A stretch of DNA of 34,716 bases, taken from contig JAQURC010000001.1 of assembly GCA_028715785.1 (NCBI GenBank), positions 268,766 through 303,481 on the forward strand, written 5' to 3'. Both the position numbers and the translations under genes were made by a program. The DNA is from Candidatus Omnitrophota bacterium (GTDB taxonomy: Bacteria > Omnitrophota > Gorgyraeia > Gygaellales > Profunditerraquicolaceae). The notes under the pieces are model-generated. The model did no database searches, had not been told where the DNA came from, and was given only the letters and a program-made list of their open reading frames with translations. The stretch's first letter is position 1. Each line of letters opens with the position of its first letter. Of the stretch, positions 11,491 to 29,720 are shown piece after piece.

Positions 11491-11557
11491 AGTGGGTAGG
11501 ATTTCTTTGTTTGGAATTTGATAATTATTAGGATGACATGGAGTATTTTAGATTTTA

Positions 11558-12004: not shown

Positions 12005-12044
12005 TAGTAATTATAGTTTTTGAAGCTGAGACGACATTAGACTT

Positions 12045-12923
12045 ATGGTAAATAGAAGGATCTTAATTCCGATACTGAATAGGGCTTCTCTGAGGTGGAT
12101 GCCATTTTACCTTACAGATAATATATATTTTGATGAAATCGCGAAGGAAGATTATGCTGTGATTAATGGACAACTTAACGAATATACTGCAAAGATAAAT
12201 GCTAAGACCAAATGTATTTATATAGTTAACGAAAAATTTACTGATGTTGATTCGTATATTAAGAATATCTCAACTGCATTAAGATTTACGTTTAATATGT
12301 TTTCAAGTCAAGATTTTATTGTGTTGTTATTTGGTTTTTTGATTGAGGAGAATAGAAATGCTAGATTGAGTAAGACTGTAGATATACTAGATATTAATTA
12401 TGAATCTTTAAGAGAGCTTCATTATAAGCTAAAGCCGAATGTAAAAAGAAAAGAGGTTATAGCATATTTTAAAATTTTAGATTCAGCGATAGAAAAATCT
12501 GATAAAATTATTATCACGCTGGAAAGATTTAATTCTAGCCTTATGAGAAGTGATAATCACGATAAAATAATCGACATTACGACAAGTTTAGAGTCTCTTA
12601 TAGAAACTAGCACCGAAATCAATTTTAAATTTTCACTTTATAACACTTTAATTTCTTATGTTAAACTAGAAGAGAGAGAAGGTATAAGCGTTCTTTTAAA
12701 AGATCTTTACGACGCTCGGAGTAAAATTGTGCATGGTTCTAAGAATGCAAGACATAGAGAATTAAGAAATATTATGGAGCATTGGAGAACTTTTGTGGAA
12801 ATAGCTAAAGCCTGCATAAATTATTATATTTTTTTCTTAAATCAAAGTAACCCTGAATCGTGGAATAATCATTTACGGAAGTTAGCTTTAGGAATAGACA
12901 AGAAGATAATCGATAATGATTAA
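12045..12923 (+). CDS. HEPN (Apea-like) domain protein
   Basis: A 292-aa protein with a C-terminal HEPN-type helical domain. The signature ARSKIVHG carries the Rx4H motif (R225, H230) found at the active site of HEPN ribonucleases. A preceding pair of helices (residues ~172-222) and a following amphipathic stretch complete the four-helix pattern. The first ~150 residues are not recognisable. HEPN proteins in defence loci are often toxins that cut RNA once triggered, but many Apea-type members are uncharacterised. No MNT nucleotidyltransferase antitoxin is next to it. A degenerate copy of the island repeat core (TAGTTTTTGAA, 12014-12024) lies just before the start. Ends 12 bases before the DndB-like gene. 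Confidence 0.65.
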   Translation: MVNRRILIPILNRASLRWMPFYLTDNIYFDEIAKEDYAVINGQLNEYTAKINAKTKCIYIVNEKFTDVDSYIKNISTALRFTFNMFSSQDFIVLLFGFLIEENRNARLSKTVDILDINYESLRELHYKLKPNVKRKEVIAYFKILDSAIEKSDKIIITLERFNSSLMRSDNHDKIIDITTSLESLIETSTEINFKFSLYNTLISYVKLEEREGISVLLKDLYDARSKIVHGSKNARHRELRNIMEHWRTFVEIAKACINYYIFFLNQSNPESWNNHLRKLALGIDKKIIDND

Positions 12924-12935
12924 AGGAGAAAAACT

Positions 12936-14042
12936 ATGTTAATTAAGAGAGATAAAAACATTTTTGCTAAGATCCCGGTCATAAGAGGCGTAGTGCTAGG
13001 TATTAATGTTTTTAGGGGTTTTGCAGATTTAAGTATTATTTCTCAGATTTCACAGCCAGATATATATGATCAAACAATTAACCCCAAAGGTACTCAAAGG
13101 GATTTGAACCATTCACATGCTAAGAATGCTTATAATTATGTTGCGTCACGCAATTTCGCTTTTTGGCCAGAAGTCTTTCTTTGCGCTAGGAATAAGAATG
13201 TTGTTAAATACATTCCTTTTGCCTATTGCAAAGATACTGGCGTATTGTTGATATCGAAGAGAGCGATTAATAGAAAGAGCATTTCTATCTCGAGGGTTGA
13301 TGGAAATCATAGGTTGCATTATGCTTCTGGTGACTATCCAGGTTATCCACCTCTTCGCAAACCAGTTTCTTTTTGTTTGGCAATGGGGTTAACTCGGGAT
13401 CAAGAAATCACCCTCTTCAAGGATATTAATGATAACCAGAGAAGGATGGATACTAGTCACTTAGATAATATTAAGATTAGATTAACAGGGGATGAGCTTC
13501 TAAAAAAAGAAGATCCATATTTATATATTGCAAAGAAAATGAGCTCTGATAAAGATAGCCCATTTTGCGATATTGTTTATCAGGGGGGGCACAAGTCAAC
13601 CACTCATATCATCCCATTAAGAGCTTTAAAGACCGGCATCCAATATATGCTTTCAAGAACCACAAAACTTACAGCGTTGAAAGATCCCGATGTTCAGTTG
13701 AAAGTTATTAAAAATTATTTTCTTGCTTTAAGAAAATGGGAACCAAAAGCTTGGAAGCATTATAAGAAGTATTTAATGCTTCGTGGTGCGGGTTTTTGGG
13801 CTGCTTGTTTTTTGGGAACTGAAATCATCAATGATGTGCTTACGAAAGGTAAATTTGGTGTTGAAGATATGCTGTCAATATTGAAATCTGGAAGGAAATG
13901 GGATTGGTCAAATAATGGAGATTTTAAGGGTCTCTCTGGCCGTGTTGGGGCTAAAGAAATATCCGAGAAAATAGTCTCAAAACTAAAGAATGATTCGGGT
14001 GTTTCTGTTGAAAACTTAGTTAGGAAAATAATGAGTAAATAA
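12936..14042 (+). CDS. DndB-like DGQHR-domain protein
   Basis: A 368-aa protein behind a good ribosome site (AAAGGAG ending ~6 bases before ATG). RVDGNHRL at residues 120-127 is a DGQHR motif variant (Gln replaced by Asn), and LFKDINDNQRRMD (160-172) is the second signature shared with DndB. DndB proteins are DNA-binding regulators or partners in phosphorothioate DNA modification, and related DGQHR proteins occur in other DNA-modification clusters. Here there is no DndA/C/D/E, no Dpd-type transglycosylase and no Ssp protein nearby, so it is an orphan. It may serve the R-M or HEPN genes or be a regulator. Function inferred from family only. Confidence 0.7.
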   Translation: MLIKRDKNIFAKIPVIRGVVLGINVFRGFADLSIISQISQPDIYDQTINPKGTQRDLNHSHAKNAYNYVASRNFAFWPEVFLCARNKNVVKYIPFAYCKDTGVLLISKRAINRKSISISRVDGNHRLHYASGDYPGYPPLRKPVSFCLAMGLTRDQEITLFKDINDNQRRMDTSHLDNIKIRLTGDELLKKEDPYLYIAKKMSSDKDSPFCDIVYQGGHKSTTHIIPLRALKTGIQYMLSRTTKLTALKDPDVQLKVIKNYFLALRKWEPKAWKHYKKYLMLRGAGFWAACFLGTEIINDVLTKGKFGVEDMLSILKSGRKWDWSNNGDFKGLSGRVGAKEISEKIVSKLKNDSGVSVENLVRKIMSK

Positions 14043-14080
14043 GTATGTTTTAATGGAGTTTAATATTCAAGAATCATTTT

Positions 14081-14140
14081 CCTCCCCTCTAAAATTTTCA
14101 CCAGTTTTTTGAAAAGATAGCGCTAGGCGGGGGCGGGTTA
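14081..14140 (+). repeat. Island repeat, copy 1
   Basis: A ~60-bp unit in the gap between the DndB-like and OLD genes. It has a C-rich start (CCTCCCCTCTAAAA), the invariant 20-base core at 14103-14122, then GCTAGGCGGGGG. It matches copies at 15691-15750 and 16767-16824. The C-rich start and G-rich end can pair with a bulge, giving an imperfect hairpin. A short GACT..AGTC hairpin follows near 14146-14162. Confidence 0.9.
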
Positions 14141-14186
14141 ATGCGACTGTAAAAAAAGTCGGAAAATATAATTTTACGAGAGAACA

Positions 14187-15701
14187 ATGGTTAAAGCTTT
14201 AAAATTGAAAGGACATAAAGGAATAAAAGAGGTAAATATTGTTGATTTGGAGCATATAAATGTCTTGTCCGGGAAGAATAATTCTGGAAAATCGAGTATT
14301 CTTGAGGCTGTGCAGGATAAGGCTAAACGTTCCCTGGGAGTACTATTTAAGGAAGAGAATTTGGAGAATTTAGCTAAGATATATCGGCCTCTTATAAATA
14401 CATCAAGTCCATCGCCAGATCAAATACTGGATACATTTAGACAGTTTATAAAAACGCATAACGGCGAGTATCTTTATAAAGATTATGAAAAAGATTATGT
14501 TGACGAGTTCTCGAAAATATTCCAACAGAAATATCACCAGAATTACGGAAACAGTTATAGTTTTGATAGGTTCTTTAGGGTAGTTGTTTCTCAGGAAGAA
14601 GATAATTTTAAGCCTTGTCTTATTGATCCCAAAAGAAAGATAGGATCCGTAACTAAGATTGATACAGCCGTAAAACTTTCTACAAACGGGGATAATCTTC
14701 TAAATGATTTATTTTTTCTAAAGAATCAAGAACCATATTCTAAAGAGTACAAGAGTTACGTCAGTATATTTGATAGTTTTAAGCAAATAACAAATGGGGC
14801 CCAATTTAATATTTTACCCGACAAAGGAAATAACATTAAATTGCAGTTCAGAATTGATAAATGCGATGGTTGGGTTGATGCCGATAATTGTGGTTTAGGT
14901 TTACGGGAGGTGTTATTAATTGTTTCTTTTGTTTTTAGCCCTGAATTCGATTTTATCCAAATTGAAGAACCAGAAAACCACTTGCATCCAGAATATCAAA
15001 GGAAACTCTTGAGATTTATCGATTCAGCTATTGATAAGCAGTTTCTTATATCAACCCATTCAAATATTTTCTTAGATACGAGTTATGTGGATAAAGTATT
15101 CCTTACTTATTTTAATGGCCAGGTTTGCATTGAGGAGAAAACAAACAAAGCTAAAATTCTCAATGAATTAGGTTATTCCCCCTCGGATAATTTAATTTCA
15201 GATTTAATAATTTTAACCGAAGGACCAAAAGATTTCCCTGCCATAGAGGAATTCTTGAAGAAAATAGAAGGATTAGCGGGTTATGCGATTAAGTTTTGGC
15301 CTTTAGGCGGAGATATAATGTCTCAAGTCGATTTGTCAATCCTAAAAGAAAACAGTAATTTGATTGCACTTATCGATAACGACCCCGGAAGTAAAACACA
15401 TAGAGAAAAGTTTAAAGAACATTGCAAATCTTTAAATATCGAGTGCTTTCAGTTAAAACGCTATGCTTTGGAAAATTATTTCTCGATCAAAGCAATTAGA
15501 GATGTTTTTCAAGCGCAAATTTCAAAGGATATTACTGAAATAAAACCGGACAAAAAAATTGATTCGCAGATTGGCATAAATGTCAAAAATAATTCAAGGA
15601 AGATAGTTGGGCAAATGGGTATTGATGAGATAAAAAATACGGATTTATATGAATTTTTGGTCAGAGTAGAGACAATTTTGAAGAATTCTAGCTCCCCCTA
15701 A
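14187..15701 (+). CDS. OLD-family ATP-dependent nuclease (solo, class 1 type)
   Basis: A 504-aa ABC-type ATPase fused to a TOPRIM nuclease. Walker A is GKNNSGKSS (residues 29-37) after the usual LKLKGHKGIKEV opening. The Walker B region is IQIEEPENHLHPEYQ, followed by LISTHSNIFLD. The C-terminal TOPRIM part has LTEGPKDFPAIEEF and LIALIDNDPGSK, carrying the catalytic Glu and Asp residues. OLD proteins act in phage defence (P2 Old, class 1) or with a UvrD-like helicase (Gabija GajA, class 2). No helicase is adjacent, so it is solo or works with the small downstream genes. Its C-terminus, including the stop, runs into repeat copy 2, and copy 1 lies upstream, so the gene sits between two repeats like a cassette. 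Confidence 0.88.
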   Translation: MVKALKLKGHKGIKEVNIVDLEHINVLSGKNNSGKSSILEAVQDKAKRSLGVLFKEENLENLAKIYRPLINTSSPSPDQILDTFRQFIKTHNGEYLYKDYEKDYVDEFSKIFQQKYHQNYGNSYSFDRFFRVVVSQEEDNFKPCLIDPKRKIGSVTKIDTAVKLSTNGDNLLNDLFFLKNQEPYSKEYKSYVSIFDSFKQITNGAQFNILPDKGNNIKLQFRIDKCDGWVDADNCGLGLREVLLIVSFVFSPEFDFIQIEEPENHLHPEYQRKLLRFIDSAIDKQFLISTHSNIFLDTSYVDKVFLTYFNGQVCIEEKTNKAKILNELGYSPSDNLISDLIILTEGPKDFPAIEEFLKKIEGLAGYAIKFWPLGGDIMSQVDLSILKENSNLIALIDNDPGSKTHREKFKEHCKSLNIECFQLKRYALENYFSIKAIRDVFQAQISKDITEIKPDKKIDSQIGINVKNNSRKIVGQMGIDEIKNTDLYEFLVRVETILKNSSSP

Positions 15702-15750
15702 AAATTTCGCTAGTTTTTTGAAAAGATAGCGTTAAGCGGTGAGCGGTTAA
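15691..15750 (+). repeat. Island repeat, copy 2
   Basis: The same unit as copies 1 and 3, with the invariant core at 15712-15731. Here CGCTA (15708-15712) and TAGCG (15727-15731) form a perfect stem around the T-rich/A-rich centre. The copy overlaps the last codons of the OLD gene and ends 6 bases before the next ATG. The right part reads GTTAAGC where copies 1 and 3 read GCTAGGC. Confidence 0.9.
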
Positions 15751-15756
15751 ATAAAT

Positions 15757-16155
15757 ATGAAAAGAAGTGATTTCAGCAATAAAGAATGGGATAATATTAA
15801 AAATGAAATAAAAATTATTTTAATAGAAATGGCTAAGAGAAGAGGTCTAATTACTTACTCAGATTTAACGAAGAGAATTAATGCTGTCAGGTTAAATACA
15901 GAAAATAAAGATGAAGTACAAATTATGGCGCAGTTATTGGGAGAGCTTTCGTGTGAAGAAAGTCGCGTTGGTCATGGGATGATTTCGACACTAGTAATTC
16001 ACAAGACTGGTGATCAGGAGCCCGGTTTAGGATTTTTTGATTACGCTAAAGAAATAGGCAAAGATTTCAATGATAAAACAAAATTTTGGGTTGAAGAATG
16101 CAAAAAGGTGCATAATTATTGGGCTGTTAAATCGAAGGTAGTAAAAAATAGATAG
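15757..16155 (+). CDS. Conserved-looking small protein of unknown function
   Basis: A 132-aa soluble protein with no motif I can name. It starts with an acidic helix (NKEWDNIKNEIKIILIEMAK), then RGLITYSDLTKRI, which looks like a helix-turn-helix or winged-helix half. The middle has LLGELSCEESRVGHGMISTLVIHK, then PGLGFFDYAKEIG, and it ends with a helix containing WVEECKKVHNYW. The ordered GHGM-S-LVIHK and PGLGFF blocks look like a real conserved family and not a random frame. It begins 6 bases after repeat copy 2 and is followed after 20 bases by the RusA-like gene, so the two probably form one unit. Function unknown. Confidence 0.65.
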   Translation: MKRSDFSNKEWDNIKNEIKIILIEMAKRRGLITYSDLTKRINAVRLNTENKDEVQIMAQLLGELSCEESRVGHGMISTLVIHKTGDQEPGLGFFDYAKEIGKDFNDKTKFWVEECKKVHNYWAVKSKVVKNR

Positions 16156-19175: not shown

Positions 19176-19814
19176 ATGACAAATAAAAATTCCGGATCCA
19201 TTTGGAAGAGTTTTAAAGAGAAGTTTCCCTGGAGGGATATGTTTTTGGGTTTTTTAATCCCCAAAATGTTTTTTCTTTATGGGGCGCGTCATGGCATGGC
19301 TTTTCTCTGGGGGGCCATAGCTATAGCCTGGTGCGGGGCGGTATTTTATCTGACCCAGGTGAAAACCCGCAAGGTGAATTTTTTTGCCGTCTTTGCCGTA
19401 ATTATGATTTTGGCGCGCATAGTCGTGGTGGTCGCCGAAAAAAATCCCCGGATGTATTTATACGTGTTGGCATTGGATAATTTAACCGTGGGGGTTATTT
19501 TTATGGCCTCACTTTTATTTAAGCGTTCGCTGATGCAGATGTTCGCTGATTCTGCCGGCGCCCGAATTCCGCAGGAGATCCTGCGCTCAATGTATTATGG
19601 AAAGGCCTGGAGGATAGTTACCTTTGTATGGGCGGCAGTATATATACTCTTTGCGCTGGCGCTGGTGTTATTAAAAGCCCGCAACCTGAAGATCGTCGGC
19701 CTGATCGATATGTTCGCCGGTTGGCCGCTTATGATTATCCTGTTTCTTTTTACCCTTAAATTCCCCGCTTGGTACTGGAAAAATAATTACGCGTTGATAA
19801 AAACAGGGCAATAA
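19176..19814 (+). CDS. Polytopic membrane protein, family unclear
   Basis: A 212-aa protein with about five or six hydrophobic segments (near residues 22-34, 39-58, 67-88, 92-112, 147-168 and 175-193). The layout and motifs such as PKMFFLYGARHGMAF are loosely reminiscent of VC0807/septation-A-like proteins, but I cannot assign a family. It sits 9 bases after nrdJ with no clear ribosome site and 3 bases before the ACR3 gene, so it may travel with the arsenite pump. No catalytic motif is visible. Confidence 0.6.
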   Translation: MTNKNSGSIWKSFKEKFPWRDMFLGFLIPKMFFLYGARHGMAFLWGAIAIAWCGAVFYLTQVKTRKVNFFAVFAVIMILARIVVVVAEKNPRMYLYVLALDNLTVGVIFMASLLFKRSLMQMFADSAGARIPQEILRSMYYGKAWRIVTFVWAAVYILFALALVLLKARNLKIVGLIDMFAGWPLMIILFLFTLKFPAWYWKNNYALIKTGQ

Positions 19815-19817
19815 ATA

Positions 19818-20867
19818 ATGTCCGAGAGCATTGTAAAAAAACTTTCATTTCTGGACAGGTTCTTAACGCTGTGGATATTTTTGGCTATGGCATTGGGGGT
19901 GTTGCTGGGTTATTTTTATCCGCCGATAGTCGGCTTTTGGAATAAATTTCAGGCAGGCTCCACTAATATACCGATTGCCATCGGCCTGATCCTGATGATG
20001 TATCCGCCGCTGGCTAAAGTCAGGTATGAAGAATTGGCCGATGTTTTACGGGATACAAAAGTACTCACTTTGTCTCTTATCCAAAACTGGATCATCGGCC
20101 CGGTTTTAATGTTTTTTCTGGCAATCGTATTCTTGAGGAATTATCCGGAATATATGGTGGGTTTGATCCTGATCGGCCTTGCCCGTTGCATCGCCATGGT
20201 GATTGTCTGGAACGAGTTGGCAGGCGGCGATACGGAATACTGCGCCGGACTGGTCGCGTTTAACTCATTTTTCCAGGTTTTATTTTATTCCGCCTACGCC
20301 TGGTTTTTTATCACCATTGCGCCGGTTTGGTTCGGGTTAAAAGGGATGGTTGCCGCTGTTTCCATGGGGCAGATCGCCCACAGCGTTTTCATTTATCTGG
20401 GGATTCCTTTTATCGCCGGCATGCTCACCCGGTTTGTCGTCATCAGGACAAAAGGTAAAGTTTGGCACCATGAGAAGTTTATTCCCAAAATCAGCCCCTT
20501 GACCCTGATCGCGCTTTTATTCACCATTGTCGTGATGTTTTCAATGAAGGGGGAGTATATCGTTAAAATCCCCCTGGATGTGTTCAGGATTGCCCTGCCG
20601 CTTTTAATTTATTTTGCGGTGATGTTTCTAGTCTCATTCTATATGGGCAAAAAGGCCAAAGCAAGCTATGCCAAGAGCGCCACACTTTCCTTTACCGCAG
20701 CCAGCAATAATTTTGAGTTGGCCATCGCGGTGGCTATCGTAACCTTTGGAATTAATTCCGGCCAGGCGTTTGCCGCGGTAATCGGGCCGCTGGTAGAGGT
20801 GCCGGTATTAATCGGCCTGGTGAATGTCGCGTTATATTTTAAAAGAAGATACTTTCAACATGGATAA
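19818..20867 (+). CDS. acr3: ACR3-family arsenite efflux transporter
   Basis: A 349-aa inner-membrane carrier with about ten hydrophobic segments that exports arsenite. The segment [21 protein letters not shown] holds the conserved Cys of the ACR3 family, and the late segment [17 protein letters not shown] is the other family signature. Length is normal (about 350-400 aa). It starts 3 bases after the membrane protein. An arsR-type regulator lies ~7.7 kb downstream past the Ehr-like operon, so the arsenic genes here are split. Antimonite may also be a substrate. Confidence 0.93.
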
Positions 20868-20885
20868 AAGAAAGGATGGGAATAA

Positions 20886-21287
20886 ATGAAAAAATATTAT
20901 CTGGCTGTGATTAGCGCGTTCTGTTTTAGCGTATTTGTTTGTGCATATTCTTTAGCGCTTGATGACGCAAAAACAAAATTACCTGAGTTATCCGGCAAAA
21001 TTGAAAATGGCGTAAGAGTGGTTAAAGTTAAGGCCTTCAGGTATGGCTATGATCCTGATCCGATTGCGGTAAAACTGGGGGAGAAAGTTCGTATTGTTGC
21101 CGTAACCAGTGATGTAACCCACGGCCTGGCTATATCCGAATTTAATATAAATTTGATGATTGAGCCCGGAGAGACGGAAACCGCGGAATTCCTGGCCGAT
21201 AAAGAAGGCGAATTTACTATATATTGCACTGTTTATTGCGGGTCCGGCCATGTAAACATGCGCGGAAAATTTATTGTCGAGAAATAA
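20886..21287 (+). CDS. Exported CuA-like cupredoxin
   Basis: A 133-aa protein with a signal peptide (KKYYLAVISA..., cut likely near ALA/D at residue ~25). The mature part is a single cupredoxin domain. DVTHGLAI supplies H79 and the loop CTVYCGSGHVNM supplies C114, C118, H122 and M125. This is the CxxxCxxxHxxM ligand set of CuA centres in cytochrome oxidase subunit II and nitrous oxide reductase. There are no transmembrane helices of subunit II and no oxidase subunit I nearby, so it is a stand-alone periplasmic electron carrier or copper chaperone. It follows the ACR3 gene by 18 bases. Confidence 0.85.
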   Translation: MKKYYLAVISAFCFSVFVCAYSLALDDAKTKLPELSGKIENGVRVVKVKAFRYGYDPDPIAVKLGEKVRIVAVTSDVTHGLAISEFNINLMIEPGETETAEFLADKEGEFTIYCTVYCGSGHVNMRGKFIVEK

Positions 21288-21495: not shown

Positions 21496-21555
21496 TTTAA
21501 CATAGTAAAGCAGTTCCGAGTTTTAAGGTGGGTCTGGGCTAAGAAAATAACGAGA

Positions 21556-21600
21556 AACCTTTGTTGGTGGGTTATATCTACCGGCAAAGGTTTTTTCTTT
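21556..21600 (+). terminator. Leader terminator/attenuator before the Ehr-like operon
   Basis: AACCTTTG (21556-21563) pairs with CAAAGGTT (21585-21592), with an inner GGT/ACC pair, followed by a T-rich run. It sits between the promoter and the first gene, 22 bases before the ATG at 21623. It may attenuate the operon, or simply end the desulforedoxin transcript. Confidence 0.7.
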
Positions 21601-21622: not shown

Positions 21623-23449
21623 ATGCTGGATTTTTTACCGCAACAAATTTTTCAATTTGATCCGCTTGCGCTATTCTTCCTTTGCGTCATCTTTATTGTT
21701 TGCCTTCCATCGGCTATTTACTCCTTTGGCTACTTAAAAGGGAAGTACTCATCTTCTAAAATAACCCTCTCCTGGTTTCTTCTAGTTGTTTTTGTCTTAT
21801 CCATGGCTGCTGTGGTTAGCGTGGGCAACGCTTTAATCTTTCTTGTGGCCTGGGAAATCATGTCGCTGGTTTCTTATTTTCTGGTGGTTTTTGATACTAC
21901 CCATGAAAAATCAATCCAGGCCGGTATGATTTATATAATCATGACGCATATCGGAACGGCATTTTTGGTGGCGGCATTTTTGATTTTGTATCAACAGGCG
22001 CATTCGTTTGATTTTATGGCAATAAAAAATGCCTGCCTTGTTATGCCGGCCCGGACCAAAGATATCGTTTTCTTGTTACTCTTAGCAGGCTTTGGGACAA
22101 AAGCCGGTATCGTGCCATTGCATGTTTGGCTGCCCTACGCCCATCCGCAGGCTCCCAGCCATATTTCAAGTATTATGTCCGGTGTAATGATCAAGACCGC
22201 CATCTACGGGATAATCCGGTTTGTGATTTTTTTACTAGGCGTGAATTCTTCCTGGTGGGGCATCCTGATTTTAATCTTAGCGGTAATTTCTTGTTTGGCG
22301 GGAATAATTTACGCGCTGATGGATCGCGACATAAAGAGGCTGTTGGCTTATTCCAGCGTGGAAAATATCGGTATAATCCTCTTGGGGGTTGGGCTGGCAA
22401 TGCTGTTTATATCCAAACGGATGCCATATTTAGCCGTATTTTCGCTGATTGCCGGATTTTATCATTTGGTAAATCACGCGATTTTTAAAGGACTTTTATT
22501 TTTATGCGCCGGCAGCGTGTATAAAGCTACGGGGACCCGCGATATTGAAAAGTTAGGGGGATTGATTAAGAAAATGCCGCAGACTGCGGTTTATTTTCTG
22601 CTCGGGGCAATGGCAATTTCCGCCCTGCCTCCTCTGAATGGTTTTGTGAGTGAATGGCTTACCTTGCAGGCGTTCTTTTTAGGCGCCTTTAATTCAACAG
22701 GAGGGATGAAGCTTTTTCTAGGGATTTGCGCGGCGCTGCTGGCTTTAACCGGCGGCTTGGCCGCTGCCTGTTTTGTTAAGGGTTTTGGGGTGAGTTTCCT
22801 CGGCCTGCCGAGGAGCCATTATGCTGAAAGCGCCAAAGAAATATCTTTATCGATGAAGCTGGGTATGTTTTTCTTATCGCTGCTTGCTGTTGTTTTTGGC
22901 CTAGCCGCGAGTTTAATAATCAAATTATTGGCCAGGGTCGCCGGCGCAGCAATGAATATTGATGTCAGCAGCATGAGTTTTTCCCTGAACAATTTCACCC
23001 TAAGCCCGCAGATAGGTGAGGGCGCATATATTTCCGCGCCTTTGCTTGGGTTATGGCTGATTGTTTTGGGGGCTGCCGGTTTTGCTATATACAAATTATT
23101 TGGCAAGAGGAGGCGAGTTTATAAAACCTGGGATTGCGGTTACTACAAATTAGACGCGCGCAATGAATACACCGCCACTGCTTTTTCCAAGCCGTTCAGG
23201 ATTGCTTTTAGTTTCTTTTTATTGCCTTACCGCAAAACGCAGAAGATCCGGGAATCATTTTATCATGTTAAATCGATCACCTATGAAACCTACACGACCA
23301 AAGTTTTTAAAAAATACATTTATGAGCCTTTGCTGGCTTTAGTTTTTAGGTCCGCCAAGTCAATGCGGCGCCTTCAGCCGGGCAGCATCCATCTGTATCT
23401 GGGTTATATTTTTGTTACTTTACTGCTGTTGGTCATATTTACGCGTTAA
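21623..23449 (+). CDS. HyfB/HycC-like membrane subunit (NuoL/M/N family)
   Basis: A 608-aa integral membrane protein of the Mrp antiporter/NuoLMN family and the first gene of a six-gene complex. About 14 hydrophobic segments are seen. Family hallmarks: VAWEIMSLVSYFLV (residues ~74-87) with the conserved Glu, GTKAGIVPLHVWLPYAHPQAPS (~157-178) with the key Lys, and LLAYSSVENIGI (~238-249) with the helix-break Ser. The C-terminal extension of HyfB/HycC is present (WDCGYYK and following). Such subunits couple ion pumping to electron transfer. It follows a leader with a terminator and precedes the HyfC-like gene by 9 bases. Confidence 0.9.
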   Translation: MLDFLPQQIFQFDPLALFFLCVIFIVCLPSAIYSFGYLKGKYSSSKITLSWFLLVVFVLSMAAVVSVGNALIFLVAWEIMSLVSYFLVVFDTTHEKSIQAGMIYIIMTHIGTAFLVAAFLILYQQAHSFDFMAIKNACLVMPARTKDIVFLLLLAGFGTKAGIVPLHVWLPYAHPQAPSHISSIMSGVMIKTAIYGIIRFVIFLLGVNSSWWGILILILAVISCLAGIIYALMDRDIKRLLAYSSVENIGIILLGVGLAMLFISKRMPYLAVFSLIAGFYHLVNHAIFKGLLFLCAGSVYKATGTRDIEKLGGLIKKMPQTAVYFLLGAMAISALPPLNGFVSEWLTLQAFFLGAFNSTGGMKLFLGICAALLALTGGLAAACFVKGFGVSFLGLPRSHYAESAKEISLSMKLGMFFLSLLAVVFGLAASLIIKLLARVAGAAMNIDVSSMSFSLNNFTLSPQIGEGAYISAPLLGLWLIVLGAAGFAIYKLFGKRRRVYKTWDCGYYKLDARNEYTATAFSKPFRIAFSFFLLPYRKTQKIRESFYHVKSITYETYTTKVFKKYIYEPLLALVFRSAKSMRRLQPGSIHLYLGYIFVTLLLLVIFTR

Positions 23450-23458
23450 TCCTAAAAA

Positions 23459-24352
23459 ATGGAAATAATTATAATTATCGCCCAATTAATTTTATTTATC
23501 GTCATCGCCCCGCTTTTAAGCGGCCTGGTCTCCAAGCTTAAGAATAATATCCGCATGCGTAAAGGCCAGAGTATTTTTCAGCCGTATTATAATTTGATCA
23601 AGCTCTTTTCTAAAGAAGAGGTGGTTTCAGAAACCGCCTCCTGGATATTTAAGGCTGCTCCGTTTGTCGTGTTTTCTGCGATGCTTACGGCGGCAACACT
23701 TATTCCTGTGTTTATCGCCAGCCCCCTGCATCGAATGGGGGATTTTCTGGCCCTGATATTTATTTTTGCTTTGGGCCGGTTTTTTATGGCCTTGGCAGCA
23801 TTAGATACCGGCAGTTCTTTCGGCGGGATGGGCGCCTCAAGAGAAATGTTTATCTCAAGCCTGGTTGAGCCGGCGTTTTGTTTAGTCGTATTTTCCATAT
23901 TTTTACAATTCGGTTCGACGGACATTTCAGTGTTTGGCGCGGCTCATCCGGTATCGGTTTGTTCGATCGTCGCCGCCTTTGCTTTATTTATGATTACGCT
24001 TGCCGAGACCTCCCGGATCCCCGTGGATAACCAGGAGACGCACCTGGAATTGACCATGGTGCATGAGGCGATGGCCCTGGAATATTCGGGGAGATCTTTG
24101 GCTTTAATCGAGCTATCTGCGCATATAAAACAGATGATTTTATTTTTTCTGATTGCCCAGCTGGTTTTTCCGGTTAATTTTTGCGGTTTCTGGATCCTGT
24201 GGTATTCGGCCCGGATAATGGTCATCGTGATCGCCGTGGCCCTGGTTGAGGTTTCGGTTGCCAAGATGCGCCTGTTCAGAGTGGCGGATTTTTTGGGATT
24301 TGCTTTTGTATTGGCAATGATCGCCGTAGTTTGCGCGGTGTTAGGAGTTTAA
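23459..24352 (+). CDS. HyfC/HycD-like membrane subunit (NuoH family)
   Basis: A 297-aa protein with about eight hydrophobic segments. The cytoplasmic loop RKGQSIFQPYYNLIKLFSKEEV near residues 36-57 is the NuoH/HycD signature, and the later ETSRIPVDNQETHLELTMVHEAM (~182-204) is the second, acidic one. It anchors the peripheral arm to the membrane and links it to the ion-pumping subunits. It is followed by the HyfE-like gene after one base. Confidence 0.93.
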   Translation: MEIIIIIAQLILFIVIAPLLSGLVSKLKNNIRMRKGQSIFQPYYNLIKLFSKEEVVSETASWIFKAAPFVVFSAMLTAATLIPVFIASPLHRMGDFLALIFIFALGRFFMALAALDTGSSFGGMGASREMFISSLVEPAFCLVVFSIFLQFGSTDISVFGAAHPVSVCSIVAAFALFMITLAETSRIPVDNQETHLELTMVHEAMALEYSGRSLALIELSAHIKQMILFFLIAQLVFPVNFCGFWILWYSARIMVIVIAVALVEVSVAKMRLFRVADFLGFAFVLAMIAVVCAVLGV

Positions 24353-24353
24353 G

Positions 24354-24989
24354 ATGAAGGAAATTATCCTGTTCGGTATTTTGGTCTCGACGTATTTTAT
24401 GGTTATTGCCAAAAGGATGCCGGCTTTAATCCGCTCTTTTGGCTACCAGTCGTTTTTTTTGTTTCTGGCAACTTTTGCCATCGCCTGGGGGGAGGACCAG
24501 CCGGAACTGTATATTATCTGTGGGCTCCTGTTTATTATAAAAGTATCGCTTATTCCTTATTTATTATACAGGATTACCAATAAAATCAAGGCAGGCCAGG
24601 ATCTGGGGTTGATCATAAATTCCCAATTATCTTTATTCTGCGCTTTAGGCTTTACGTATCTGGCCTGGATTTTTTCCGCACGGCTGTTTTCTTCCCTCAA
24701 CCAGTCTTTGGTGAGCATGCCGGCGGTAGCTTTTTTTATGGTCTTGACGGGGTTATTTTTAATGGTCTCCAGGATAACCGCGCTGGCCCAGGTTGTCGGG
24801 CTTCTGGTTATGGAAAACGGTTTATTCCTGCTGGCTTCTACCGTATCAGGAGGCATGCCGTTTTTTGTGGAGATTGCCATATTTTTTGACGTGTTTGTCA
24901 GCGTAGTGATCATGGGTTTTTTTGTTTACCGGATCAATAAGCTCTTTACGCACATTGACGTAGGTAAACTTTCAAATTTAAAAGGATAA
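24354..24989 (+). CDS. HyfE-like membrane subunit (NuoK family)
   Basis: A 211-aa polytopic protein of about seven hydrophobic segments. Conserved features are ARITALAQVVGLLVMENGLFLLA-type residues near 140-160, the MENG/GLF stretch with its buried Glu being the NuoK/HyfE mark. It starts one base after the HyfC-like stop and ends 3 bases before the HyfF-like gene. Confidence 0.85.
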   Translation: MKEIILFGILVSTYFMVIAKRMPALIRSFGYQSFFLFLATFAIAWGEDQPELYIICGLLFIIKVSLIPYLLYRITNKIKAGQDLGLIINSQLSLFCALGFTYLAWIFSARLFSSLNQSLVSMPAVAFFMVLTGLFLMVSRITALAQVVGLLVMENGLFLLASTVSGGMPFFVEIAIFFDVFVSVVIMGFFVYRINKLFTHIDVGKLSNLKG

Positions 24990-24992
24990 TTT

Positions 24993-26450
24993 ATGCCGAT
25001 ATTTTTTATTTTAGGGATTCCGTTTGCGCTTGCCTTAAGCGCGCTGTTGATTAAAAACAGGAAGGTGCTGGGACTGTTGAATTGCCTGGGGTATCTGGCG
25101 GTTTTATCTTTTAGCGTCGTCCTTCTCAAGCAAATAGTTTTATCGGCAGGCACCCGCTCGTATCCGGGTTTTATTTACCTGGATACTTTGAGCGTATTTT
25201 TTATCCTGGTTACCTCCATCGTCGCTTTGGCTGTTGCCTTATATTCTATCGGCTATCTGGAAAAAGATATAGAAGAGGGCCGGATATCGGAGAGAAAAGC
25301 CAGGATCTATTACCTGCTTTTTAATTTATTCTGCTGTTCGATGTTGGTTGTTCCGGCAGTCAATAACTTAGGGATACTCTGGGTGGCAATTGAGATGACC
25401 ACTTTAATTTCGGCTTTTTTGGTAGGATTTTATAACACCAAGAAATCAGTTGAAGCGGCCTGGAAATATATTATTATTTGTTCGGTGGGGATAATTTTTG
25501 CGCTCTTGGGTACGATCCTTTTTTCCTACGCATTCTCCATCTCCGGTCTTTCCAAGAGCCTGAATTGGTCGGATATTGCCCCGGTTGCCCACATTTTGGA
25601 TAAAGATATCTTAAAAATTGCTTTTATTTTTATTTTAGTCGGCTATGGGACCAAGGCCGGCTTGGCGCCGATGCATACCTGGTTGCCCGACGCCCACAGC
25701 CAGGCGCCTGCTCCGATCAGCGCGTTACTTTCCGGGGTATTATTAAAGATGGCCATTTACGCTATTTTAAGGTTCGGTATTATCACGATCAAGGGCGTGG
25801 GTTTTGCTTATTTTTCCAACTTAATGATTTTGCTGGGCGTAGTTTCTTTGGTGATATCCAGCGGATTTATCCTGGTCCAAAAGGACCTAAAAAGGCTGCT
25901 TGCTTATAGCAGTATCGAACATATCGGGATAATTGCCATCGGTTTTGGTTTAGGCACCCCTTTGGCTGTTGCCGGAGCGGCTTTGCATGTATTTAATCAC
26001 GCCGTGGCTAAGTCGCTGATGTTTTTTGGCGCGGGTAATATTGTCAGAGTTTATAAAAAGCATAATCTGAACGCTATCCGGGGAGTGATCAAGGCGCTGC
26101 CGTTTACGGGCATTGCGGTATTGATCGGCGTTTTTGTGCTTACGGGATTTCCTCCGTTTTCGTTATTTGTAAGCGAGATGATGATCATAATTTCCGCTTT
26201 TACCAATGGCGCATATTTAACCGGCGCTTTATTGTTATTGTTTCTTGCGGTTGTTTTCGGAGGATTCATTTATCATTTTGGAAAAATGCTTTTTGGCAAT
26301 CTTCCTAAGGGGATGGTTAGAGTGGATGAGCCGTTAAGCACAAAAATTGCGTTCATCTTTTTGTTTTTTCCCATTTGCGCTTTAGGGATTGCGCTGTTAT
26401 TTGTAAATAAGGATTTGCTATGGGTGGCCCAGAGATTATTGCCGAGATAA
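24993..26450 (+). CDS. HyfF-like membrane subunit (NuoL/M/N family)
   Basis: A 485-aa integral membrane protein, the second antiporter-like subunit. AIEMTTLISAFLVGFYN (~130-146) gives the conserved Glu, GTKAGLAPMHTWLPDAHSQAPAP (~214-236) gives the Lys-containing segment, and LLAYSSIEHIGI (~303-314) the broken helix. Fourteen or so hydrophobic segments are present. Its 3' end overlaps the large-subunit gene by 31 bases. A second antiporter-like subunit means two putative ion channels in the complex. Confidence 0.92.
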   Translation: MPIFFILGIPFALALSALLIKNRKVLGLLNCLGYLAVLSFSVVLLKQIVLSAGTRSYPGFIYLDTLSVFFILVTSIVALAVALYSIGYLEKDIEEGRISERKARIYYLLFNLFCCSMLVVPAVNNLGILWVAIEMTTLISAFLVGFYNTKKSVEAAWKYIIICSVGIIFALLGTILFSYAFSISGLSKSLNWSDIAPVAHILDKDILKIAFIFILVGYGTKAGLAPMHTWLPDAHSQAPAPISALLSGVLLKMAIYAILRFGIITIKGVGFAYFSNLMILLGVVSLVISSGFILVQKDLKRLLAYSSIEHIGIIAIGFGLGTPLAVAGAALHVFNHAVAKSLMFFGAGNIVRVYKKHNLNAIRGVIKALPFTGIAVLIGVFVLTGFPPFSLFVSEMMIIISAFTNGAYLTGALLLLFLAVVFGGFIYHFGKMLFGNLPKGMVRVDEPLSTKIAFIFLFFPICALGIALLFVNKDLLWVAQRLLPR

Positions 26451-27997
26451 AAAATAAAATTCCGGATTTTGTTCCCCTTGCGGTATTACAAAATTACCCG
26501 GATGAAATTAATATTAAGGTAAGCCCGCAGGTTTTCAAGGATACTTGCCTGGCCCTGCATAAAATTCTTTTTTCTGCGGTTGCGGCGCTTTTTGCTTTGG
26601 ATGAACGTAAGGAAAGAGGGTGTTTTGAAATTAATTCCATATTTGTGGATTTTAAAAATAGCCGCTGGATCACGGTCAGTATGGATATCCCGCAGGAAAA
26701 TCCCGGTTTTGATTCACTGGCAAAGAGTATGTATTCCGCCAGCCTTTTTGAAAGAGAGATTTGGGAGATGTTCGGGATCCAGCCAAAGGGCCATCCTGAC
26801 CTAAGGGGGTTAAGGCTGCATAATGAAGTCTGGGCCAAAGAGAATTATCCCTTGCGTAAAGATTTCCGGAAAATGCAATCCGGAAATTTAAGCGATTATA
26901 AATTTAGCCGGGTGGAGGGGGATGGCATATTTGAAGTCCCGGTTGGGCCGGTGCATGCCGGGATTATCGGTCCGGGGCATTTCAGGTTTAGCGTTGCCGG
27001 AGAGCCGATCATAAACTTGGAGCTTCGCCTGGGGTTTGCGCATCGGGGAGTAGAGAAGCTTTTTGAGGATAAGCTTTATTATGATGCGGTCGGTTTATCA
27101 GAATGTGTTTGCGGGGATTCCAGCTTTGCGCATAGCCTGGCATTTACCCATGCCATCGAGAAGATTTCAGGCACATCGATTCCGATGCAAGCGGTTTATT
27201 TAAGAGGGGTTTTCTTAGAGCTGGAACGTATGTATAATCATGTGAATGGCATAGGAGGAATTGCCACTGATGTGGGTTTTAGTTTTCCCGCTGCCTACGC
27301 TTCAATCATTAAAGAGGCGATCCTGCAATTAAACGCCCGGCTTACCGGAAACAGGTATCTGAAAAAAGTTAATACCATAGGAGGAGTTTTAGCGGATATT
27401 GATGAAACCAAGAAGCAGGTACTTCTTGGGTCTATCAAGCACCTAAAGCGGGATTTTAATGAATTAGTCAAAATATTATATTCCAGCGTTTCTTTCATGG
27501 ACAGGGTGGATACCACCGGGGTTTTGCGCCGGAAAACCGCTGAGGATCTGGGCGTGGTCGGCCTCATCGGCCGCGCATCCGGCATTCCTGCGGATTTAAG
27601 AAAGTATTTTTCCGGAATATATAAGGAGGCTGGATTTAAAATGGCTTCACAGGAATCCGGAGATGTCCTGGCCAGGCTGCGCGTGAGGATTTCTGAATTT
27701 CAGGAATCCTGCCGTTTGATCGAAGAATTCGCGGCAAGGCTTAATAAGGTTGAGAAATCAAGAGTCGAGCCGGAATTAAAGGCAGGCAGCGCCTTGGGTT
27801 ATGCCGAAGGTTGGAGGGGCCCGGTTTTATACTGGGTTAAAGCAGATCCCGCCGGCTTGATCCAGAGATGTAAAATAGTCGATCCTTCTTTCCTTAACTG
27901 GCAGGGGTTGGCCTATGCCGTATTAGGAAATATTATCCCAGATTTTCCACTGTGTAACAAAAGTTTTGATTTGTCCTATGCGGGAAATGATCTTTAA
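26420..27997 (+). CDS. HyfG/NuoCD-like large subunit lacking the NiFe ligands (Ehr-type)
   Basis: A 525-aa fusion of a NuoC-like domain (residues ~1-150, ending EREIWEMFGIQPKGHPDL) and a NuoD/hydrogenase large-subunit domain. Family motifs such as GPVHAGIIGPGHFRF and LELRLGFAHRGVEK are intact. The nickel site is not: the first motif, RxCGxC in true hydrogenases, reads E-C-V-C-G-D-S here (C231 kept, second Cys is S234, Arg is C229). The C-terminal DPCxxC motif reads D-L-S-Y-A-G (residues 517-522), with both Cys gone. Three of four ligands are lost, so no NiFe centre is expected. This matches energy-converting hydrogenase-related (Ehr) complexes, not a hydrogenase. Start 26420 has AAGGA 6 bases upstream. 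Confidence 0.9.
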   Translation: MGGPEIIAEIKNKIPDFVPLAVLQNYPDEINIKVSPQVFKDTCLALHKILFSAVAALFALDERKERGCFEINSIFVDFKNSRWITVSMDIPQENPGFDSLAKSMYSASLFEREIWEMFGIQPKGHPDLRGLRLHNEVWAKENYPLRKDFRKMQSGNLSDYKFSRVEGDGIFEVPVGPVHAGIIGPGHFRFSVAGEPIINLELRLGFAHRGVEKLFEDKLYYDAVGLSECVCGDSSFAHSLAFTHAIEKISGTSIPMQAVYLRGVFLELERMYNHVNGIGGIATDVGFSFPAAYASIIKEAILQLNARLTGNRYLKKVNTIGGVLADIDETKKQVLLGSIKHLKRDFNELVKILYSSVSFMDRVDTTGVLRRKTAEDLGVVGLIGRASGIPADLRKYFSGIYKEAGFKMASQESGDVLARLRVRISEFQESCRLIEEFAARLNKVEKSRVEPELKAGSALGYAEGWRGPVLYWVKADPAGLIQRCKIVDPSFLNWQGLAYAVLGNIIPDFPLCNKSFDLSYAGNDL

Positions 27998-28003
27998 ACT
28001 ATT

Positions 28004-28516
28004 ATGATACATATACTAAAAAACAGGATCTTAAAAGGTATCGTCACCAGGCAGATTGAGCCGGAATTATCCAAAGAGATAGAGGCGGCCGGTTCTGAAT
28101 TGCGGTCTTTGATCCGGAAAAAATTCGGCCGATCTTTGCACATACGCGAAATCGACACGGGTTCTTGCGGAGCCTGTGAATCGGAGATCATTGCGGCAAA
28201 TAACCCCGTTTATGACTTGCAGCGGTTCGGGATCAATTTCGTCGCCTCGCCCCGTCATGCCGATTGTCTTTTGGTTACCGGCCCGGTATCTAAAAATATG
28301 TTGCTGGCCCTCAAAAAGACCTATGATGCTATGCCTGAGCCGAAATTTGTGATTACCTGCGGAGATTGTGCCTTAAACGGAGGATTATTTAAAAGTTCTT
28401 ATTATGTGGAAGGCGCGGTGAAGGATATAGTTCCGGTCGTCTTACATATTCCAGGTTGCCCCCCAAGTCCTCTGCAAATTATATTATCCTTGAATGCTTT
28501 ATTGCAGAAAGCCTAA
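28004..28516 (+). CDS. HyfI/NuoB-like small subunit with intact 4Fe-4S ligands
   Basis: A 170-aa subunit of the NuoB/hydrogenase small-subunit family. The proximal [4Fe-4S] ligands are all present: C55 and C58 (DTGSCGACESE), C122 (ITCGDCALNGG) and C152 (IPGCPPSP). So the electron-accepting cluster is kept although the partner large subunit has lost nickel. It is the last gene of the operon; its stop codon lies inside the palindrome in front of arsR. No HyfH/HycF-type 8Fe ferredoxin subunit is found in the operon. Confidence 0.92.
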   Translation: MIHILKNRILKGIVTRQIEPELSKEIEAAGSELRSLIRKKFGRSLHIREIDTGSCGACESEIIAANNPVYDLQRFGINFVASPRHADCLLVTGPVSKNMLLALKKTYDAMPEPKFVITCGDCALNGGLFKSSYYVEGAVKDIVPVVLHIPGCPPSPLQIILSLNALLQKA

Positions 28517-28551
28517 AAAATACTTGACATTTTTTAGGGATAGGTTATACT
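28512..28551 (+). promoter_or_regulatory. arsR promoter with overlapping palindromic operator
   Basis: A sigma-70-type promoter: TTGACA (28524-28529), 16-base spacer, TATACT (28546-28551). A perfect 10-bp inverted repeat CCTAAAAAAT (28512-28521)/ATTTTTTAGG (28529-28538) brackets the -35 box with a 7-base spacer, the position expected for an autorepressor. The start would fall within ~3 bases of the arsR ATG. Confidence 0.65.
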
Positions 28552-28560
28552 TCTATTGTT

Positions 28561-28896
28561 ATGGAACTATCAAACTGTGTAAAGATATTTAAAGCCTTAG
28601 CAAACGAACAGCGGCTGAAGATCTTTTTTATGATCCGTAAAGGCTGTTGTTCGACGGAAGATAAGGCCGGTTCGGCATTCCGGATAAAAAATAAAACCTG
28701 TTGTCCGGTGGCCGGGGTCATTGAAAAGGCTTTTACCAAAGTGTGCGAGTGTATGAATCTTTCCAGATCGACGGTATCGCATCATTTTAAAGAACTTCAA
28801 AACGCAGGATTAATTAGCTGCCAGCGGGATGGGCAAATGTATCGTTGCAAGGTTAATGAGGAAGTGATCAATTCTATGCGGGATTTTCTGAAATAA
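28561..28896 (+). CDS. arsR: ArsR-family (HTH_5) transcriptional repressor
   Basis: A 111-aa winged-helix repressor that releases DNA when it binds metal(loid)s. The start KIFKALANEQRLKIF is the family opening; MNLSRSTVSHHFKELQNAGLI is the recognition helix region. It is unusually Cys-rich: CC in the first helix-loop region, CC after an insertion (residues ~40-50), and KVCECMN just before the recognition helix, which is the ArsR-like CxC/CxxC metal site position. The ~25-residue insert between the first helix pair and the DNA-binding helices is not typical. The gene may be leaderless. It likely controls itself and the genes downstream, perhaps the ACR3 cluster as well. Confidence 0.9.
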   Translation: MELSNCVKIFKALANEQRLKIFFMIRKGCCSTEDKAGSAFRIKNKTCCPVAGVIEKAFTKVCECMNLSRSTVSHHFKELQNAGLISCQRDGQMYRCKVNEEVINSMRDFLK

Positions 28897-28922
28897 TTTT
28901 TTTTGTCTTTATAGTTCGACTG

Positions 28923-28935
28923 TATTGGAACAATA
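28923..28935 (+). promoter_or_regulatory. Small palindrome upstream of the Cys-rich gene
   Basis: TATTG-GAA-CAATA is a perfect 5-3-5 inverted repeat between arsR and the next gene. The sequence AACAATAGAA (28929-28938) is also the reverse complement of bases 28551-28560 at the arsR start. This suggests a shared binding site, perhaps for ArsR. Confidence 0.4.
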
Positions 28936-28956
28936 GAATGAAAGGAGGTGATGGGA

Positions 28957-29127
28957 ATGTTCAACTGTTGCGGAAAAGAGGGTAAGTCTTTTTGCGAACA
29001 GCTTGATTGCAAGGCAAAAGAAACACCAAAAGGCATTCAAGTTGAAATAAGCGCAAAAGATGCTTCCAAAACAAAATCGTTGAAGGCTTTAATCAAGGCT
29101 TTCCATGATTTCTGCGGATGTTCTTAA
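28957..29127 (+). CDS. 56-aa Cys-rich small protein
   Basis: A short frame with a strong ribosome site (AAAGGAGG at 28941-28948, 8 bases before the ATG). The 56 residues include six Cys: a CC pair near the N-terminus (FNCCGKE), FCEQLDC, and a C-terminal FCGCS. The middle is Lys-rich with an amphipathic helix pattern. It lies between arsR and a DGC-domain gene, so a metal-binding or metal(loid) stress role is likely, possibly as a thiol carrier. An alternative ATG at 28951 is too close to the ribosome site. I do not recognise the family. Confidence 0.7.
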   Translation: MFNCCGKEGKSFCEQLDCKAKETPKGIQVEISAKDASKTKSLKALIKAFHDFCGCS

Positions 29128-29134
29128 GGTAGTT

Positions 29135-29166
29135 AATGTCGGGAGGTGGGCCCGCTTCCCGACATT
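29135..29166. repeat. 10-bp perfect hairpin between Cys-rich and DGC genes
   Basis: AATGTCGGGA (29135-29144) pairs with TCCCGACATT (29157-29166), and inner bases extend it with G-U pairs. There is no T-run, so it may be an mRNA-processing or stability element, not a standard terminator. Confidence 0.7.
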
Positions 29167-29216
29167 TCCCGAATCCAAGGATGATGCTAAAAAATATTTA
29201 AAACCGGGAGTAAAAA

Positions 29217-29720
29217 ATGGCTGAGAAAAAATGTTCTGGAATTAATAGGCAGGGAGCTAGCGAGTATGAAACTGTCAAGATAGCAAAAACTGATAATGTA
29301 TGCCCGATGTGCGAAGATTACGCCAAGAAGCAGGCGTCTAAACCCATCGCGGTGATATGCTGCGAAGGCGCTTGTTTGCGCGGCGAGGTGGCCAGGCAGG
29401 CGGCAAACTTAATATGCAATTGGCTTGCGCCGGAAAAAACTGTCCGTATTTGCCTGGGCGGCGCCTTTACCAAAGATACAGGACAGAGAAGTTTGGTAAA
29501 AAATGCCGGCAAGGTCATCGCGATAGAGGGTTGTTTTATTCAATGCGCTTCCCGTATGATGAAAGGGGTAGTTGACAATCTTAATCCGGAGATAATTATT
29601 GCCGACAGGCTTTACGATTTCGACACAAATCTCTTTGGAGTAGATGAAATGTCTGAAGATCAAATAAAAATTCATGCAAAAGAGGCGGCAAGAAAGATTG
29701 GTGAAAAATTATATGAATAA
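29217..29720 (+). CDS. DGC-domain putative zinc-binding protein
   Basis: A 167-aa cytoplasmic protein of the DGC/zinc-binding family. Ordered motifs are VCPMCEDYAKKQ (residues ~25-36), VICCEGACLRGEVARQAANL (~47-66) and AIEGCFIQCASRMM (~103-116), each with paired cysteines that should bind metal. A ribosome site GGGAG lies ~8 bases before the start. Family members often neighbour ArsR regulators and thioredoxin or arsenic genes, as here. The exact role is unknown. The N-terminal MAEKKCSGINRQGASEYE segment is variable in the family. Confidence 0.8.
   Translation: MAEKKCSGINRQGASEYETVKIAKTDNVCPMCEDYAKKQASKPIAVICCEGACLRGEVARQAANLICNWLAPEKTVRICLGGAFTKDTGQRSLVKNAGKVIAIEGCFIQCASRMMKGVVDNLNPEIIIADRLYDFDTNLFGVDEMSEDQIKIHAKEAARKIGEKLYE

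Follow-up and report, generated by a model that had tools for sequence, protein, structure and literature searches.

The window analyzed here, a 34,716-nucleotide stretch from a Candidatus Omnitrophota bacterium (GenBank assembly GCA_028715785.1, contig JAQURC010000001.1, positions 268,766–303,481), contains a six-gene operon (21623–28516) that almost certainly encodes an Ehr (Ech/energy-converting-hydrogenase-related) complex. Across the Ehr family, the former nickel pocket of the large subunit has been remodeled and then conserved together with the ion path of the membrane subunits, and the iron-sulfur (Fe-S) clusters have been lost in grades, down to none. Because the pocket and the ion path survive the loss of all known redox centers, electron transfer is unlikely to be the function shared by the family. 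We tentatively propose, with a little less than even confidence, that Ehr is an ion translocator started or gated by something bound in the pocket, with electron transfer not its conserved core. That the shared function needs no electrons, the redox centers having been shed in order around a fixed pocket and ion path, seems to us possible rather than probable.

The six genes are of the HyfB-C-E-F-G-I type, share one orientation, and either overlap slightly or are separated by short gaps. The large subunit, EhrL, whose reading frame overlaps the 3′ end of the HyfF gene by 31 bases, is a fusion of NuoC and NuoD, like HycE. The closest solved chain by sequence is HycE for EhrL (7z0s_E, 208 bits) and Pyrococcus MbhJ (6cfw_J), followed by HycG, for the small subunit, EhrS. 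Structure prediction and fold comparison were applied to the large subunit alone: its AlphaFold model (pLDDT 87.7, pTM 0.90) matched HycE best (Z 47.2, root mean square deviation 2.0 over 518 residues, HycE residues 5–537), and complex I chains scored Z of about 44 and below, aligned over the NuoD part only.

A pattern scan of public genomes yielded at least 571 relatives, from which 80 named loci were kept; this sample is incomplete and biased toward sequences near that of the window, which holds for all family counts given here. The kept loci come from Omnitrophota, Elusimicrobiota, Saganbacteria, Patescibacteria, Rokubacteria, Methylomirabilota, Nitrospirota, Acidobacteriota, Verrucomicrobiota, Chloroflexota, Bacillota, Geobacteraceae, Nitrososphaerota, and methanogens, and most of those that are sufficiently long carry the same six-gene module, as B-C-E-F-G-I or I-B-C-E-F-G. 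In a tree of large subunits, 93 Ehr members, including that of the window, formed one clade (support 100/100), with E. coli HycE/HyfG as its sister (100/99). Within it, EhrL belonged to a 24-row clade of Omnitrophota, Elusimicrobiota, and Saganbacteria (100/100), and the Patescibacteria large subunits were nested inside the Ehr clade (100/99). The Ehr clade includes Geobacteraceae, Nitrospirota, Nitrososphaerota, Saganbacteria, and the Candidate Phyla Radiation (CPR), the groups in which Ehr was described; the Geobacter GSU0739-45 proteins themselves were left out of the tree. This placement, together with the published Ehr complexes that have the same defining loss, identifies the operon as Ehr, as the original prediction had proposed.

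In the alignment to HycE, the L1 motif RVCGIC corresponds to C229-V-C231-G-D-S234 of EhrL and the L2 motif DPCYSC to D517-L-S519-Y-A-G522. The Ni-Fe ligand positions of EhrL are C231, S234, S519, and G522, so that three of the four cysteines are replaced. EhrL thus lacks the full set of four cysteines (RxCGxC, DPCxxC) that marks a group 4 [NiFe] hydrogenase and agrees with the published definition of Ehr, a group 4/NuoD-type large subunit that has no Ni-Fe-binding CxxC motifs. These replacements had already been noted, and alignment with group 4 hydrogenases, NuoD-type chains, and Ehr relatives confirmed both them and the placement in Ehr. The surviving C231 was considered as a metal ligand and rejected, since 82 of 94 relatives have Ser there (8 have Cys, 2 Ala, and 2 Asp) and the window's own clade has Cys, Ser, Ala, or Asp. 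The second position is Ser (39), Thr (31), Glu (9), Ala (8), Asn (6), or Cys (1) across the 94 relatives; among 93, the third is Ser in 92 and Thr in 1, and the fourth Gly in 91 and Ala in 2. For the family as a whole, the ligand positions read Ser, Ser/Thr, Ser, Gly inside a conserved SGD...NKSFNLSYSGND pocket. Around them, N513, K514, S515, Y520, and D524 are invariant (93/93), as is H179, at the Nqo4 H38 position (94/94). As the neighboring residues are invariant and the ligand positions restricted, the site has been remodeled and is not decaying. From these residues, no Ni-Fe site can be formed in EhrL, and the complex is predicted neither to make nor to use H2.

The end of the chain agrees with this picture. 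EhrL stops at position 525 in 93/93, with zero residues beyond, and this end aligns with that of processed HycE (residue 537, the position at which HycI cuts), which leaves nothing for a maturation protease to remove. The cleavable C-terminal extension of group 4 hydrogenases is missing in 93/93 Ehr but is not universal, as the true group 4 enzyme of the host also lacks it. Sequencing error, which the original prediction had named as a possible refutation, was rejected, as was a pseudogene: the same ligand losses occur at 65–91% identity in 13 further genomes, namely 12 of the 26 other genomes of the genus and one genome of another genus in the same family. Moreover, all six genes are under purifying selection; the ratio of nonsynonymous to synonymous substitution rates (dN/dS), measured between the window and its nearest relative, was 0.09 for HyfB, 0.09 for HyfC, 0.10 for HyfE, 0.12 for HyfF, 0.10 for EhrL, and 0.11 for EhrS.

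The Fe-S clusters vary by lineage. The four cysteines of EhrS that had been predicted as cluster ligands (C55, C58, C122, and C152) are all present, in the hydrogenase-type CxxC...C...C spacing. Elsewhere in the family, this proximal cluster is accompanied by further clusters or is itself gone. Cysteines of ferredoxin domains were assigned to clusters I and II by the standard two-[4Fe-4S] ferredoxin pattern. Eight loci have a two-cluster ferredoxin and hence three clusters in all: in methanogen loci L080 and L093 it is a separate gene between the large- and small-subunit genes, and in L125, three Bacillota, L077, and L089 it is a domain fused to the small subunit. Fifteen loci (12 Acidobacteria/Verrucomicrobia and three of the four Nitrososphaeria) have two clusters, their fused domains having lost exactly the ligands of cluster I (C1, C2, C3, and C8) and kept all those of cluster II (C4–C7); the fourth Nitrososphaeria locus, L103, has no ferredoxin domain in the called frame. 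In the window's clade, Nitrospirota, Rokubacteria, Methylomirabilota, and Geobacteraceae, the proximal cluster is the only one. Finally, in Patescibacteria, sampled both through the locus search and in 285 surveyed genomes, the four cysteines have become TCDD, TEDD, SEGD, TEGD, or DADN (10 genomes with a readable site). These cluster-free complexes retain the SGD and NKSFNLSYSGND motifs of the pocket and the ion-path residues of HyfB and HyfF.

The original prediction had noted that the operon lacks a HyfH-type ferredoxin. Indeed, it consists of six genes only, and no HyfH-type ferredoxin gene was found within or adjoining it. Judged against the other loci, the absence is one stage in a loss that proceeds by grades across the family and not, as had been supposed, a puzzle peculiar to this operon. 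The grades may reflect an order of shedding, with the Ni-Fe site lost first, followed by ferredoxin cluster I, ferredoxin cluster II, and the proximal cluster; the window would represent the one-cluster stage. The parts of the CPR paper available to us describe the loss of large-subunit cysteines and not the cluster losses, and our literature search, whose coverage did not extend to the founding Ehr papers (Marreiros 2013), found no report of Ehr cluster losses.

Several observations concern the Patescibacteria small subunits themselves. Replacement of the cysteines is regular, mostly Thr, Cys/Glu, Asp/Gly, and Asp (L068, L075, L090, L096, L129, and L139–L149), and the acidic residues conserved where the cluster used to be could serve as ligands of a metal ion or as part of a hydrogen-bond network. 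Locus L090, on a contig labeled as a Thermoleophilia bacterium, lies inside the cluster-free Patescibacteria clade with a TCDD site and reflects either a misbinned contig or a transfer. Two further Patescibacteria matches keep CCCC, with the motif GACNGCDIEI, and resemble ordinary group 4 small subunits.

In the membrane arm, the ion-path residues are present in both antiporter-like subunits of the window (HyfB E78, K160, K191, and E344; HyfF E134, K221, K252, and E395). The equivalents of NuoM E144, K234, K265, and E407 are retained in 69–71 of 71 HyfB sequences, and the E, K, and E of the HyfF ion path in at least 80 of 83, Patescibacteria included. HyfC retains the equivalents of NuoH E157 and E220, and the NuoH E218 position is His in 66/66 Ehr HyfC. 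Mrp-antiporter-like membrane subunits with conserved charged residues, by which Ehr is recognized, are thus present, and we infer that ions move through this arm. In the mechanism that we propose, the HyfB/C/E/F arm would translocate or exchange ions (H+ or Na+) as the conserved task, and something bound in the remodeled pocket would start or gate this movement. Electron transfer would be an accessory input, retained as three, two, one, or zero clusters depending on the lineage. In the lineage of the window, where one cluster is strictly kept and redox input is therefore likely, a soluble ferredoxin may dock at the vacant HyfH site, which would be the simplest electron source for this complex, and feed the single cluster one electron at a time; the cluster would then couple ion movement to, or gate it by, the redox state of the cell.

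Four points weigh against this proposal. The cluster cysteines never vary within the window's clade, a clear sign that electron transfer is important in that lineage. The Patescibacteria complex without clusters may represent a derived exception that is no guide to the family. The invariance of H179 would also fit a pocket that binds a redox substrate, and ion transport by Ehr is itself predicted from residue conservation.

The strongest alternative is an electron-driven pump that works like complex I or the sulfane sulfur reductase of Pyrococcus (MBS, Mbx): reduced ferredoxin, docked on the small subunit, would send electrons through the one cluster there to an acceptor occupying the old Ni-Fe pocket (a quinone, a sulfur compound, or another), and the membrane arm would pump ions. 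This is the common view in the literature. For the family we consider it possible but doubtful; for the window's clade it is nearly as likely as the ion translocator. It accounts well for the invariant cluster cysteines of that clade, for the full two-cluster ferredoxin domain of Ehr in methanogens, Firmicutes, and a few others, and for the retention of all four cluster II ligands wherever cluster I has been lost. The host, furthermore, encodes an RnfC-like protein and a ferredoxin-type group 4 hydrogenase, and MBS provides a precedent for such a complex working without a Ni-Fe site (PMC7684303). However, such a pump is impossible for the cluster-free Patescibacteria Ehr, in which pocket and ion path are intact, and no conserved donor or acceptor gene lies near the module: when 1,458 neighboring genes from 93 loci were clustered and 126 flanking proteins scanned against Pfam, no conserved redox partner gene was found beside Ehr. 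The commonest flanking families were ArsR-family regulators (8) and Usp (4), with the rest at 3 or fewer; a 2-oxoacid:ferredoxin oxidoreductase lies two genes downstream of Ehr in L035, a single occurrence. As for particular acceptors, the cluster spacing gives no support to a sulfur reaction like that of MBS, since EhrS has the four-cysteine hydrogenase arrangement, unlike the three-cysteine catalytic cluster of MBS. A quinone acceptor is possible but likewise not supported for the window's complex: of the two quinone head-group residues of Nqo4, H38 is matched by H179, and Y87 is replaced by Gly. In the host, PF02621, the marker of the futalosine menaquinone pathway, was not found; a MenA-like protein is present there, weak, scoring under every curated cut-off. 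The original prediction was of ion pumping by the module, powered by an alternative electron source or sink. Its ionic half agrees with the ion-path residues, all of which are present, but its electron-driven half does not follow from 93 loci with no conserved partner gene and from Patescibacteria that keep pocket and ion path without cluster ligands, and we regard electron-driven pumping as one option and not the default.

An FDH-Ehr complex, in which the electrons come from a separately encoded formate dehydrogenase (FDH), is improbable here. It was proposed for Margulisbacteria and Saganbacteria from gene neighborhoods (PMC6349859), and Ehr subunits of Geobacter sulfurreducens are more abundant on formate (PMC7894505). 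Nevertheless, the window contains no formate dehydrogenase gene (the rest of the host genome was not searched for one), and molybdopterin oxidoreductase is absent among the 25 commonest families of the 126 flanking genes.

A role in arsenic handling is very unlikely. The operon is flanked by genes for ACR3, an ArsR-family regulator, and a DGC protein (19818–21287 and 28561–29720), and the ArsR and DGC genes also adjoin the Ehr of the nearest relative; the modules of other relatives, however, lack these neighbors, apart from one with an ACR3 fragment a few genes away. In addition, terminator-like and promoter-like sites, called by consensus scan only, part the units, and the ArsR-type genes at 10 other Ehr loci encode no cysteines in the sequence stretches viewed. 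Least likely of all is a decaying relic without function, as assumed for Geobacter Ehr on account of the missing Ni-Fe site (PMC13194489): although that site is gone and roughly half of the genus does not have the complex, dN/dS of about 0.1 in all six genes argues against such an assumption, as does a new motif that is invariant over more than 12 phyla.

The host genome (1.46 Mb, 96% complete, 18 contigs) also encodes true [NiFe] hydrogenases, so that the ligand loss in Ehr is no sign of hydrogenases having been abandoned. Contig C6 carries a canonical group 4 operon (L044:5360-11110) with ERICGICSF and DPCISCTER motifs and a two-[4Fe-4S] ferredoxin subunit; a HypA gene adjoins it, and its large subunit ends at the mature C terminus (DPCISCTER) without an extension. 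On contig C8, a [NiFe] hydrogenase of the group 3 type that retains its four Ni-Fe cysteines precedes genes for a maturation protease, for HypC fused to HydE (an [FeFe]-hydrogenase maturase), and for HydG (496 bits, cut-off 312; L053:175-6406). A search of the 27 genus genomes for HypD (PF01924) gave no match, and no [FeFe] hydrogenase was found in the host or in ten genomes of the same genus with HydG. The CO and CN ligands of the contig C8 [NiFe] site may therefore be made by HydE and HydG and not by HypDEF, HypE and HypF not having been searched for; a literature search gave no report of HydE/HydG-made ligands for a [NiFe] site. Close Ehr relatives occur in 13 of the 27 genus genomes, that of the window included and several of them incomplete, which indicates an accessory and not a core function in the genus.

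The features of the operon are listed in the table below. No NuoE, NuoF, NuoG, or NuoI gene lies in or next to the six genes. A scan of the window for RNA elements gave tRNAs only, with none at the operon start, and no plasmid-borne copies of Ehr were found at the DNA level. The promoter-like site that follows the EhrS gene suggests that the ArsR gene probably forms a unit of its own.

Table. Positions of the Ehr genes, functional motifs, and boundary signals in the window
Feature	Position	Strand	Evidence
HyfB-like antiporter-like membrane subunit, 608 aa	21623..23449	+	Proton_antipo_M 4.9e-58; best NCBIfam hydrogenase 4 subunit B, 645 bits
HyfC-like (NuoH-like) membrane anchor subunit, 297 aa	23459..24352	+	NADHdh 6.3e-35
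HyfE-like membrane subunit, 211 aa	24354..24989	+	Hydrogenase 4 membrane subunit 2e-22, under curated cut-off; operon position conserved
HyfF-like antiporter-like membrane subunit, 485 aa	24993..26450	+	Hydrogenase 4 subunit F 6e-136, under curated cut-off
HyfG-like large subunit EhrL, 525 aa, no Ni-Fe ligands	26420..27997	+	Complex1_49kDa 5e-36, Complex1_30kDa 3e-22
Former L1 nickel motif, residues 228-234 ECVCGDS (hydrogenase xRxCGxC)	27101..27121	+	Alignment to HycE and HyfG
Former L2 nickel motif, residues 513-525 NKSFDLSYAGNDL (hydrogenase xxSLDPCYSCTDR), chain terminus	27956..27994	+	Alignment to HycE and HyfG
HyfI-like (NuoB/HycG-like) small subunit EhrS, 170 aa, one [4Fe-4S] site	28004..28516	+	Oxidored_q6 1e-27
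Cluster ligands C55 and C58 (CGAC)	28166..28177	+	Invariant in close family
Cluster ligand C122	28367..28369	+	Invariant in close family
Cluster ligand C152	28457..28459	+	Invariant in close family
Terminator-like hairpin, operon boundary, between ACR3/cupredoxin genes and Ehr	21552..21596	+	20-pair stem with T tail
Promoter-like site TTGACA-16-TATACT 3′ of EhrS gene	28524..28551	+	11/12 consensus matches

Upstream of the operon, 19176–21287 encodes a VC0807-family membrane protein (under the cut-off), an ACR3 arsenite exporter, and a secreted-looking cupredoxin that resembles the C-terminal domain of nitrous-oxide reductase/COX2. Downstream, 28561–29720 encodes a cysteine-rich ArsR and then a DGC-domain protein; between the two genes, a small cysteine-rich open frame was noted by eye at about 28951–29129 (+ strand), starting with MGMFNCCGKEGKSFCEQLDCK and ending with CGCS. 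ArsR-type regulators also occur one to five genes upstream of Ehr in L076, L086, L094, L095, L099, L104, L105, L107, and L112, and five genes upstream in L058, and the cysteine-rich ArsR of the window is unlike these. Farther away, 5515–16155 contains three tRNA genes followed by a RadC-like/DNA methyltransferase-like fusion, a second adenine-methyltransferase-like protein, a restriction-endonuclease-like protein, and an AAA ATPase (proteins assigned by eye), and looks like a defense island inserted near tRNA genes.

The operon thus joins the known Ehr family, the new part being the graded loss of Fe-S clusters, and in this organism it should not be counted as a hydrogenase. How complex I couples redox reactions to the movement of ions is an old question. 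If an ion path and pocket are indeed retained under graded redox loss, Ehr would be a natural experiment on this coupling, since such a relative would separate the parts needed for ion movement from those needed for electron transfer, and the invariant pocket motif offers exact targets for mutation. Ehr occurs across many bacterial and archaeal phyla, including ammonia- and nitrite-oxidizing microbes.

Among characterized systems, E. coli Hyc/Hyf (group 4a) is the nearest relative by sequence, tree, and fold and has the same types of membrane subunits; the window's complex differs in lacking Ni-Fe ligands, the C-terminal extension, and counterparts of HyfA, HyfD, HyfH, and FdhF. With complex I (NuoCD, NuoB, NuoH, and NuoL/M/N) it shares the folds, the antiporter ion path, and H179 at the Nqo4 H38 position, but it has no NuoE, F, G, or I and has Gly at the Nqo4 Y87 position, and its EhrS cysteines form CxxC whereas those of the complex I small subunit are an adjacent CC. 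MBS is likewise group-4-like and has lost its Ni-Fe ligands, yet couples to ions (PMC7684303); it retains two of the four cysteines and three Fe-S clusters, including a three-cysteine catalytic proximal cluster, compared with one cysteine, one four-cysteine cluster, and no MbsN-like ferredoxin subunit in the window. Ehr complexes have been described from Geobacter (GSU0739-45), Nitrospira, ammonia-oxidizing archaea, Margulisbacteria/Saganbacteria, and CPR, and the publications covered here report no proven function for them. The window's clade departs from other Ehr in having Gly (G184) for Glu at the MbhL E21 position and Cys at 512, and in having one Fe-S cluster, whereas some other Ehr have a ferredoxin domain and CPR Ehr have no cluster. 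The window's complex and the known Ehr are alike in their group-4-like large and small subunits, their Hyf-type membrane subunits, and the loss of the Ni-Fe ligands.

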